Shown here: piece by piece, positions 55,713-58,866 of the stretch
Numbering within the stretch: position 1 is the stretch's first letter
Layout of the letters: each line of letters begins with the position of its first letter
Assembly (NCBI RefSeq): GCF_036246005.1
Contig: NZ_CP109171.1
Location: 5,010,001-5,074,000 of the forward strand
Reading direction: 5' to 3'
Origin: Streptomyces sp. NBC_01723
GTDB taxonomy: Bacteria; Actinomycetota; Actinomycetes; Streptomycetales; Streptomycetaceae
Length of the DNA stretch: 64,000 nt
Position numbers and translations under genes: made by a program
The notes under the pieces: generated by a model
Databases searched by the model: none
The model's input: the letters and a program-made list of their open reading frames with translations, nothing else
Told to the model about the DNA's origin: nothing

Positions 55713-55754
55713 CGGCATGCTGGGATCGGTGACGCACCGATGGGAGAACCGCCA

Positions 55755-58282
55755 GTGCGACACGAAGTCGCTCCACCCAAGTAGATGGTCTGTGTGAGGA
55801 AAAGAGGTCATGAGCAGGCCATCTCGGACCAGTGTCCAAGGTCCGTCCCCACTTCCGCATGCGTCGCTGGTAACGGCGGGGTGTGAAGCCGGAAGCGCAA
55901 GCCCAAGAGCGGCACGGCCATCGGACCGCAACAGGCGAGGGGAAGGCCGGACGGGCTAATGAAAATGAACCCTTGACGACATCTCGTAACTCCTGTGCCG
56001 CGTCGATGGTGAGCTGTCGGCGGCAGACAGGCCCTGGCGCGGAAGAGCGCACGACGACCCCAGAGGATTGGCGCCGAAGGGGGAGGACACCGTCGGGCCC
56101 GGGATTAAGAGGGAGCCCACCCCGGTCGCATCTTGTGGGAGCGGAACGTGGAAACCCCGTTGGAGTCCGGGAGTGATCCCGGTAAGCCGGAGGCAACGAA
56201 GGACCAATCCTCCAGCGGGACAGGATGATCCGAGAAGCGAACGCCGACAGGGCGAAAGCCCAGAGGAAAAGGACGTGGAGACCTCAGCCGCGTCCCATAA
56301 CTCGTCGGACACGAGGTGATGCCTCGGCCCGAAAGGGAGCCCACGCGGATCAGGTAGGCCCGTGAAGAAGAACTGCGAAGAGACCCGAACCGAAGGGCAA
56401 GTTGGATGCCGAAGGAAGGTGTGGCAGTGACCGCCGTGGCGGCGATGCCTCCCACGACGGCGAACGGACCGGAGGACCACGCCCAGACCTGGCACAGCAT
56501 CGACTGGGCCAAGGCAGAGGCGTCGGTACGGCGACTGAGGCAGCGCATCTTCACAGCCGCGCAGGAAGGGGACCTGAAGAAGGTCCGAAACTTGCAGAAG
56601 CTCATGCTGCGCTCCCACTCGAACACGCTCGTAAGCGTGAAGCGGGTGACGCAGCAGAGCACAGGCCGTCGGACGGCCGGGATCGACCAGGAACGTGCGC
56701 TCACTCCGAACGCGCGAGGACGGCTGGCCGCTGAGATCACAGCGGAACGCTCGCCTGGAAAACCCTTGCCCGTCCGGCGTGTGTACATTCCCAAAGCCAA
56801 CGGAAGGCAGCGCCCCTTGGGCATTCCAGTCATCCGTGACCGGGTCCGCCAGGCCCGCGTCAAGAACGCACTGGAACCCGAGTGGGAAGCCCGGTTCGAA
56901 CAGCGGAGTTACGGCTTCCGCCCCGGCCGGGGCTGTCATGACGCGATCGGCGCCATCTTCAATATCGCAGGCCAGAAACGGGCCAAGCGGCTATGGGTGC
57001 TCGACGCTGATCTGACAGCGGCGTTCGACCGTATTTCGCACGACCACCTGATGAGCCTCATCGGTACCTTCCCAGCGCGGGAAGCGATCCGGGGGTGGCT
57101 CAAGGCGGGAGTGATGGACTGCGGACGGTTTTCACCCACCGATGAGGGAACCCCTCAGGGTGGTGTGATCAGCCCGCTGCTGCTCAACGTGGCCTTGCAC
57201 GGCATGGAAACGGCGGCCGGGCACCTCACAGAGGGACGTTCCCACAAGTCCCGAAGAGACGTTCCGGTCCTGGTCCGGTACGCAGATGACTTCGCGGTGT
57301 TCTGCCACAGCGAAGACGAAGCGCACCGGGTCAAGGAGCAGCTGGCTGTCTGGATGGCCCCGCGCGGGGGCGCCTTCAACGAGGAGAAGACATCGGTCCT
57401 CCACCTTGAAGAAGGCTTCGACTTCCTCGGGTTCAACATCCGGCGGTACAGCGGGACTCTGCTGATCAAGCCGAGCAAGGCGGCTGTGAAGAGGGTCCGG
57501 GAGCGGCTCCGCAGTGAAGTGATCGGCCTGCGAGGGGCGAACGCTGGAGCCGTGGTGAGGAGGCTCAACCCGATCATCAAGGGGTGGGCCACCTACTACC
57601 GGACGGTGGTGTCCAAGGAGACCTTCAAGTCCCTGGACTTCTACGTGTGGACGCTCACGCAGAAGTGGGTCAAGCACTCCCACCCGAACAAGCCGAAGAG
57701 CTGGCGACTGGCCAAGCACTACGGCGTCTTCAACTCGACCCGGAAGGACCAGTGGGTCTTCGGTGACCGGGACACCGGCACCTATCTCTACAAGTTCAAC
57801 TGGACCAGAATCGTCCGGCACGTGATCGTCAAGGAGGGCAACTCCCCTGACGACCCCTCGCTGGCCGACTACTGGGCGAGCCGCCGACGCAAAAGGGTGC
57901 CCGGGACCGCCGACAGGTGGACCATCACTCTCGCATCCCGCCAGAAGGGGATCTGCCCGCTGTGCAAACAGCCGTTGATCCCCGACGCCGAGTACACACC
58001 GGACAACCCCCGCGAGTGGGCCGCGTGGTTCTCGGCATCGATGAAGCCGCTGCACAAGCACCACTTCATCTACCGGCGCGACGGCGGCTCGGACGAGCGG
58101 ACGAATCTTCGCCTCGTACACGCCGACTGCCATCGCCAGCACCACGCCGGCGACCACAGAAGGGCCAAGCAAGATGACCGACCCGCGTGACTCCAGGGGC
58201 CCGCTTGAGCCGGATGCGGTGAACAGCCGCACGTCCGGTTCTGAGGGGGCCGGAGGGCGGCAACGCCCTCCGGCTACCCGAC
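55755..58282 (+). mobile_element. Complete group II intron (2,528 bp)
   Basis: The 5' end GTGCGACACG at 55755 is the standard group II start. Near the 3' end, domain V is at 58207-58242 (GAGCCGGATGCGG...CCGCACGTCCGGTTCT). Domain VI follows, with an 11-bp stem (58249-58259 / 58264-58274) and a likely branch-point A at 58276, 7 nt before the 3' end CTACCCGAC. Domains I-III occupy about 55755-56400, and domain IV carries the maturase ORF. A 7-bp-stem hairpin (ATCGGTG-acg-CACCGAT, 55725-55741) sits 13 bp before the insertion point. Confidence 0.9.
56406..58190 (+). CDS. ltrA: Group II intron reverse transcriptase/maturase with HNH endonuclease
   Basis: 594 residues. RT domains run from about 85 to 380: RRVYIPKANGRQRPLGIP (RT2), WVLDADLTAAFDRISHD (RT3), EGTPQGGVISPLLLN (RT4) and VLVRYADDFAVFC with the catalytic YADD (RT5). 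The maturase X domain follows (NPIIKGWATYYRTVVSKETF). A C-terminal HNH-type endonuclease has CPLCKQPL and HKHHFIYRRDGGSDERTNLRLVHADCH. All catalytic residues are present, so the protein looks active. GC content is lower than neighbouring host genes, fitting a mobile intron. Confidence 0.93.
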   Translation: MPKEGVAVTAVAAMPPTTANGPEDHAQTWHSIDWAKAEASVRRLRQRIFTAAQEGDLKKVRNLQKLMLRSHSNTLVSVKRVTQQSTGRRTAGIDQERALTPNARGRLAAEITAERSPGKPLPVRRVYIPKANGRQRPLGIPVIRDRVRQARVKNALEPEWEARFEQRSYGFRPGRGCHDAIGAIFNIAGQKRAKRLWVLDADLTAAFDRISHDHLMSLIGTFPAREAIRGWLKAGVMDCGRFSPTDEGTPQGGVISPLLLNVALHGMETAAGHLTEGRSHKSRRDVPVLVRYADDFAVFCHSEDEAHRVKEQLAVWMAPRGGAFNEEKTSVLHLEEGFDFLGFNIRRYSGTLLIKPSKAAVKRVRERLRSEVIGLRGANAGAVVRRLNPIIKGWATYYRTVVSKETFKSLDFYVWTLTQKWVKHSHPNKPKSWRLAKHYGVFNSTRKDQWVFGDRDTGTYLYKFNWTRIVRHVIVKEGNSPDDPSLADYWASRRRKRVPGTADRWTITLASRQKGICPLCKQPLIPDAEYTPDNPREWAAWFSASMKPLHKHHFIYRRDGGSDERTNLRLVHADCHRQHHAGDHRRAKQDDRPA

Positions 58283-58866
58283 TGAGCGCACTCACTGTGA
58301 GCCAGGAGCCCGACCGGAACTGGGACGACCTCGTCCGGTTCTGGGAGGAGATGGAATGGCCCGAGGGCAGCAAGGTGGAGATCATCGAGGGGATCATCAC
58401 CGTGTCACCTGCTCCGGGACTGCCGCACAACGCCATCGCCGAACGAATCCAGCGCCGCTTGTATTCGGTGATTCCTGGTGAGTGGGGGGTCTACCAGACG
58501 CTCGCCCTCGCGGTGCCGTCCCGCCTGGGCATGCTGATCCCGGACATCGTGGTGGCGCAACTGCCCGACCACACCGAGTCCGACACCCACATCCCCGCCG
58601 CTCTCGCGCAGCTCGTCGTGGAGGTCACCTCGAAGTCCAACGCGCGCCACGACCGCATCAGCAAGCCCGCCGCCTACGCCACCGCCGGCATCCCGCTCTA
58701 CCTCCTCGTCGACCGCTGGGCCCCCGGCGGACCCACCGCGACGCTCTACGGTGAACCGAAGGGCGACGTCTACCGGGTGCTGGGCGCCGCCAAGTTCGGC
58801 GACCCCCTCACCCTCCCCGCGCCCTTCGACCTGACCCTCGACACCGGCGAGTTCCCCGAAGCCTGA
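58282..58866 (+). CDS. Uma2-family endonuclease, start codon interrupted by the intron
   Basis: 194 residues in the interrupted frame. Uma2 (PD-(D/E)XK nuclease-like) features: KVEIIEGIITVSP, GMLIPDIVVAQL and LVVEVTSKSNARHDRISKPAAYATAGIPLYLLVDR, which supply the D and E-x-T-S-K catalytic positions. Uma2 function is unknown. Splicing would join A at 55754 to TG at 58283-58284, giving ATGAGCGCACTC, with GGGAG (55742-55746) 8 bp upstream as ribosome site. In unspliced RNA the first codon reads CTG and the site is 2.5 kb away; GTG at 58297 would be the only nearby substitute. Confidence 0.85.
   Translation: MSALTVSQEPDRNWDDLVRFWEEMEWPEGSKVEIIEGIITVSPAPGLPHNAIAERIQRRLYSVIPGEWGVYQTLALAVPSRLGMLIPDIVVAQLPDHTESDTHIPAALAQLVVEVTSKSNARHDRISKPAAYATAGIPLYLLVDRWAPGGPTATLYGEPKGDVYRVLGAAKFGDPLTLPAPFDLTLDTGEFPEA

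Follow-up and report, generated by a model that had tools for sequence, protein, structure and literature searches.

A lineage of group II introns in Streptomyces and relatives that splits start codons, is mostly complementary to ribosome-binding sites and carries an in-frame ATG

The stretch of Streptomyces sp. NBC_01723 DNA considered here (contig NZ_CP109171.1, positions 5,010,001 to 5,074,000; all 64,000 nucleotides are called the window) contains a group II intron located within the start codon of a Uma2-family gene, between the first base A and the following TG. The intron belongs to a lineage found inside the start codons of varied genes, and its exon-binding sequence 2 (EBS2) is complementary to the Shine-Dalgarno sequence of the interrupted gene, which is at the same time intron-binding sequence 2 (IBS2) of the intron. 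The favored reading, given a probability of roughly 0.7, is that this is a retroelement specialized for translation starts, in which splicing would restore the native start and unspliced RNA could give a protein carrying a 36-residue leader; the targeting part of this reading is stronger than the restart part. The features involved, all on the forward strand and numbered within the window, are as follows.

55742..55746 (+): Shine-Dalgarno sequence GGGAG of the Uma2 gene, also IBS2 (exon positions -13 to -9); read directly, pairs with EBS2 CUCCU
55749..55754 (+): IBS1, CCGCCA (-6 to -1), ending with the A that opens the start codon; 5 of 6 pairs with UGGCGC
55755..58282 (+): group II intron, 2528 nt, GTGCG...CTACCCGAC; read directly and with Rfam, second copy with the same ends
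55990..55994 (+): EBS2, CUCCU, anti-Shine-Dalgarno-like; covariation scan
56069..56074 (+): EBS1, UGGCGC; covariation scan
56406..58190 (+): intron-encoded reverse transcriptase/maturase with HNH domain; open reading frame and profile matches
58174..58176 (+): ATG within the intron, 36 codons upstream of the junction, in the Uma2 frame and overlapping the 3' end of the maturase gene; conserved in six lineages
58174..58866 (+): unspliced read-through frame consisting of a 36-residue leader, a CTG codon and then Uma2 (230 aa); frame reading
58205..58282 (+): ribozyme domains V and VI; RF00029, 55.4 bits
58283..58866 (+): 3' exon, TG of the start codon and the remainder of the Uma2-family gene; read directly and with Pfam

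The intron and its distribution over start codons

At the 5' junction, GGGAG and seven further bases precede the A at 55754, after which the intron begins; at the 3' junction the intron ends at 58282, and TG (58283-58284) continues in frame with Uma2 (PF05685, E 1.6e-19). A first-pass annotation, made from the letters of the window, had placed the intron inside this ATG with the ribosome site in the 5' exon, so that splicing would restore the native start, and direct reading agrees with it. A second copy in the same genome (locus L002) is 99.9% identical over 2528 nt, has unrelated flanks and also lies at A/TG, where it splits the start codon AAGGAGACTGCTCA/TGGCC of a Robl_LC7 gene. Because the two copies share their ends in unrelated surroundings, and because intron-free homologues of the host gene exist, the ends of the intron are fixed.

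Ribozyme domains V and VI and the maturase motifs were likewise described correctly as intact. The element has GUGYG...AY ends, domains V and VI (fold z -5.2 for 58190-58284) and a recognizable part of domain I (55824-55912; RF02012, 38.1 bits), and its uninterrupted maturase frame matches the reverse transcriptase, maturase X and HNH profiles (RVT_N, RVT_1, GIIM and HNH in one protein; PF00078, PF08388, PF01844) and scores 320.8 bits against TIGR04416 (cut-off 300). The nearest solved chain is PDB 6me0_C (residues 16-586, E 2e-115), a T. elongatus maturase, and by its maturase the window element appears to stand near the IIB chloroplast-like kind. Relative to the true ATG, the 5' GUG of the intron is one base more distant from the host ribosome site, and ribosomes on unspliced RNA could translate from it a short frame reaching into domain I (9 residues for the window intron, 55755-55784; 1-43 residues for 13 other introns).

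Relatives were taken from GTDB contigs (the best 80 of 255, giving 79 loci) and from whole-genome searches (1838 genome look-ups, repeats included); those spanning hundreds of genomes scored just two candidates in each and so missed copies. Introns that split a start codon occur at 11 distinct sites, including those of two introns outside the maturase-clade tree rows, and 10 of the 11 interrupted frames belong to a Pfam family. The sites are listed below; in genome G148, two of them fall on four contig ends, which were paired by their Uma2 flanks and by elimination.

Site i: Uma2 gene behind deoA, in 11 genomes (the window genome, S. ipomoeae L007, S. olivaceoviridis L010, S. seoulensis L011, S. 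tibetensis L012, L018, G172, G297, G148, G605 and G602)
Site ii: Robl_LC7 gene, L002 (window genome)
Site iii: DUF6243 gene, L008
Site iv: host frame without a Pfam family, L009
Site v: GNAT gene in G148 (L149/L128)
Site vi: TctB gene with a GTG start, L013
Site vii: DUF397 gene, L014
Site viii: another Uma2-family gene, L136, in G396 (a different bacterial family)
Sites ix and x: two DUF6879 genes, L196 and L217, in G765 (a different genus)
Site xi: SDR gene in G209, L139

These sites were chosen for a cut between the first base of a start codon and TG, and the non-circular test is therefore the tree. In a tree of 63 maturases (IQ-TREE quick mode, with support from the Shimodaira-Hasegawa-like approximate likelihood ratio test, SH-aLRT), all 16 rows of the window's clade (SH-aLRT 98; nine distinct sites) are cut at x/TG of a start codon, and the remaining 46 actinobacterial and cyanobacterial rows are not start-splitting as far as their ends can be read. 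An earlier tree of 56 rows, with four short rows left out, gave the same picture (clade support 96), and the tree of 63 added L196, L217 and five others. The intron L139 is placed apart, among introns with other targets; an approximately unbiased (AU) test rejects a single start-splitting clade (p 0.017), a value to be read with the knowledge that the group was named after the first tree had been seen and that L139 is a long branch. The well-supported branches of the first tree did not force two origins. Start-splitting is a habit of the family and not a one-off on-switch.

The Uma2 site provides the most detailed view of descent. Six full introns at this site are 92.6-95.3% identical to that of the window, compared with 77.9-83.9% for Uma2 and 87.0-90.0% for deoA, and the longer pieces of two interrupted introns are 94.5% (G172) and 89.3% (G297) identical, with Uma2 at 72-73%. 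Homologues of Uma2 were found in 30 of the 100 genomes searched, window included, and 27 of the 29 outside the window genome are intron-free with (A/G/T)GGAG, a short spacer and a start codon in place; one of these 27 (L249) looks fortuitous. Identity of the homologues to the window gene is 66-84%, and some may therefore not be orthologues. Together, the contrast between intron and host identities and the intron-free homologues fit repeated entry, presumably by homing, into one favored site, and the 99.9% identical second copy and the spread to several sites are an indirect sign of mobility. Genome G277, from the same species, was expected to provide an empty site and instead carries a diverged Uma2-like allele (L252) that lacks the ribosome-site leader; it lies at the same chromosomal place, so that the alleles differ at this locus.

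Several introns are rearranged. In G602 (L181/L195, 1501-2644), the intron at the Uma2 site is shortened to 1144 nt, with most of the maturase lost and the ends and in-frame ATG kept; those of G172 (L129, ~3.8 kb) and G297 (L130, ~3.5 kb) consist of two pieces matching the window intron with other DNA between them. At position 3941 of L105 (G183), the end of one intron abuts the GTGCG of another (CTACCCGAC/GTGCGACGTGAGG), forming a head-to-tail pair. Relatives were also present in 13 plasmid records, the full-length ones ~73% identical, and none of the three inspected lies at a start codon. Viral contigs contained one distant relative (39%), and phage records contained two short matches, in two records of one phage. 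No new copies were found in 35 genomes of the genus of G765 or in 10 of the genus of G396.

Pairing of the intron with the ribosome site

The exon-binding sequences were located by scanning for intron bases whose pairing is better with the 5' exon of the same intron than with those of others, judged against permuted exons (n=39). The 39 introns were hand-picked from 50, leaving out near-copies and L021 (whose 5' end was set one base off); the set still has the same intron at two sites for both the window genome and S. ipomoeae, and L113 was retained with a mis-set EBS2 anchor. The five bases following CGTNA in domain I (EBS2) form 3.56 of 5 pairs with exon positions -13 to -9 versus 2.16 for permuted exons (z 8.6), and a stretch ~80 bases beyond EBS2, at about intron position 315 (EBS1), forms 4.41 of 6 pairs with positions -6 to -1 versus 2.61 (z 9.3), although these z-scores overstate independence, as relatives share both EBS and target. 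A first candidate for EBS1, the loop after GATGG shortly past EBS2, showed no covariation (best z 2.8). In the window, EBS2 and GGGAG form four Watson-Crick pairs and one G-U pair, and EBS1 is one base off the register that is best over all introns (that one would begin at 56068).

EBS2 is anti-Shine-Dalgarno-like in five of the six start-splitting lineages and differs among them together with the local ribosome site (EBS2/ribosome site: CUCCU/(A,G,U)GGAG, GCUCC/GGAGC, UCCCC/GGGGA, CUUCC/GGGAG, and ACUCC/GGAGA with 4 of 5 pairs); except in L136, the EBS2 of start-splitting lineages pairs with its own ribosome site at 4 or 5 of 5 positions. One geometry can serve both purposes because the spacing from IBS2 through IBS1 to the cut equals a usual spacing between ribosome site and start codon. 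On this view the placement of the window intron follows from its target pairing and, since it recurs in unrelated genes, is not a device made for Uma2. In the proposed mechanism, EBS2 of the intron RNA would pair with the Shine-Dalgarno sequence as IBS2 and thereby direct the choice of target, EBS1 would pair with the spacer and the first start-codon base as IBS1, and the intron would integrate before TG. Splicing would then yield native mRNA with ribosome site and ATG, with the predicted junction ...GGGAGAACCGCC-ATG-AGCGCACTC and a predicted native protein of 194 aa.

The distant intron L208 (G795, minus strand) has EBS2 UCCUU opposite AAGGA in GAAAGGAGGTGATCC/TGAGTTGAGT and is inserted just upstream of a possible TTG start.

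A spare start inside the intron

In all six start-splitting lineages, the host frame is open from the junction back through domains VI and V to an in-frame ATG, which lies 36 codons upstream in the near relatives of the window intron, L013, L014, L136 and L196/L217, and 34 codons upstream in L139. An ATG at 28-42 codons in this frame is absent from all 43 other intron ends compared (in the two other phases, 3 of 43 have one). The comparison set includes near-copies, and 39 of its ends do not begin with TG; among the four that do, a longer coding frame continues at L023 and L111, the frame of L208 has just two codons, and L094, whose 5' end is lost, is unassignable. Fisher's p for 6 of 6 lineages versus 0 of 43 is 7e-8, or 1e-3 if two origins only are counted. 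The ATG stands 30 bases before domain V (24 in L139, a 6-base difference that keeps the frame), and none of the first 20 columns after it is invariant among five lineages, whereas the ATG itself is. Upstream identity in this comparison was computed ungapped and is perhaps underestimated. If the intron always enters after the first base of the start codon, the frame of the replacement start would always fit. The distant intron L141 (G201, junction 1437/3953), sister to L208 on the tree, is inserted a single base upstream of an intact ATG (CCCA/CATGAGTGAG) and lacks a spare in-frame ATG, which agrees with a spare being needed only where the start is split.

The spare ATG and the maturase stop overlap as ATGA in L014, L136, L196/L217 and L139, the last a separate lineage. 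Translational coupling at ATGA overlaps is established, and a coupled restart may operate here: in unspliced RNA the host frame would be readable from the intronic ATG near or over the maturase stop, and ribosomes that complete the maturase could restart there, adding to the host protein a leader that domains V and VI encode. In L139 the spare ATG is preceded by a good ribosome site (GGAGAAACAACC-ATG). With the host frame readable in both RNA forms, the insertion would cost the host little, whether spliced or not.

A search with the leader found three proteins: the Uma2 proteins of L018 and of another Streptomyces, and one of 375 residues that has no Pfam family. A search with the L196 leader returned the same two Uma2 proteins only. 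In the 375-residue protein (P0003), the same leader is fused to unknown sequence, perhaps marking a further insertion site. Both Uma2 relatives are deposited as proteins of 230-231 residues (230 in L018) starting at the intronic ATG; gene callers choose starts, so these entries show only such a choice. Open frames extending upstream from the start into the 5' exon carry little weight, because the DNA is GC-rich and several sites with good Pfam hosts show one too.

Alternative readings and known systems

A number of observations weigh against a specialized start-targeting element with a coupled restart. L136 splits a start codon with a non-Shine-Dalgarno EBS2 (CAGCU opposite AGUUG), the ribosome site of L217 is weak (GAAAG, 4 of 5 pairs), the host frame of L009 matches no Pfam family and is perhaps not a gene, and L157, with 88% identity to L139 across its first 1407 bases, lacks a clear ribosome site in its 5' exon (5' side only). 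The tree contains at most two origins, and the lineage counts are therefore not independent. As for the restart, the ATGA overlap is not universal (the maturase stop falls 14 nt past the ATG in the window's clade and 49 in L013), and the best site before ATG 58174, AGAAGGG, is weak and distant. The looseness of the IBS2 register, with the ribosome site one base nearer (-12 to -8) at about half of the sites of the window's clade, also suits a different explanation, in which introns insert at many partly paired sites and only those at gene starts survive as the least harmful, the start codon not being recognized as such. Purine-rich ribosome sites are common, and the window minus the intron has, on both strands and at spacings 7 and 8, 109 RGGAG sites with T at +1, of which 27 have ATG, GTG or TTG there. 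Such survivorship would not readily account for an anti-Shine-Dalgarno-like EBS2 in five lineages that varies with the local ribosome site, nor for sister introns having mostly different EBS2 and different targets, and it is considered unlikely.

The first-pass annotation had further proposed a clean on-switch, in which ribosome site and ATG occur only in spliced RNA and no Uma2 protein is made without splicing. The premise holds for the native pair, which only splicing joins; unspliced RNA, however, has the in-frame ATG at 58174, which was not listed at the time, from which the frame is open to Uma2 and which is kept in six lineages. The same layout also recurs in unrelated genes (Robl_LC7, DUF6243, GNAT, TctB, DUF397, DUF6879 and SDR), making a switch made for Uma2 very improbable. 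A similarly doubtful proposal is the converse, that the host gene is in practice expressed solely as a leader fusion and that splicing serves mobility only. The deposited annotation of two relatives and the ATG retained in the maturase-deleted intron of G602 are in keeping with it; the former reflects gene callers, the Uma2 frame of G602 ends early, after 114 codons, and so may be unused, and domains V-VI and the EBS pairings are intact in the window.

Specialization for translation starts can be compared with several described systems, as far as the available portions of the sources extend. Group IIB introns with chloroplast-like maturases (Thermosynechococcus TeI3/TeI4 and EcI5; PMC2882425) share EBS1/EBS2 guiding and an RT-maturase-HNH protein, and some TeI3 introns lie between two start codons of the reverse transcriptase gene of another intron. 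Otherwise the insertion sites of these families are an IS element, a tRNA gene and intergenic regions, whereas the window lineage lies inside start codons of varied genes, and the portion of that account available describes no spare start for them. The groEL intron of Azotobacter (PMC4465626) likewise occupies a translation signal, but it is the termination codon of one gene. C.te.I1 of Clostridium tetani (PMC3919590) likewise carries, in domains 5/6, annotated starts of downstream genes, and its unspliced RNA is the commonest form; unlike the window intron, it has no maturase, and its splicing fuses reading frames and removes the domain 5/6 starts. The c-di-GMP intron of Clostridioides difficile (PMC3984707) also brings a ribosome-binding site to a start codon by splicing, but it is a ligand-controlled group I intron and a domesticated regulator, while the window intron is a mobile element without known ligand. 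Bacterial group II introns are reported to lie mostly in intergenic regions, in other mobile elements or after terminators (PMC8919778). The open-access literature, in the parts available, contained no description of an anti-Shine-Dalgarno EBS2 that directs introns to start codons, nor of a spare intronic start; subscription papers lay outside this scope, and Michel et al. 2007 may describe a related specialization.

The fullest form of the proposal, for and against which the balance seems about even, is that the guide of a retroelement has become an anti-Shine-Dalgarno copy of the ribosome's own code and brings with it a maturase-coupled replacement start, giving each invaded gene two N-terminal forms, and that this habit arose twice, in the window's clade and in L139. 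The annotated starts serve as a warning that gene callers place starts inside introns, and a start-splitting intron could become an insertion tool for gene starts. The lineage also offers a test case for the evolution of a guide RNA towards a functional signal, and for the sharing of domains V and VI between translation and ribozyme folding. It has settled at the most sensitive point of a gene and seems to bring its own remedy.

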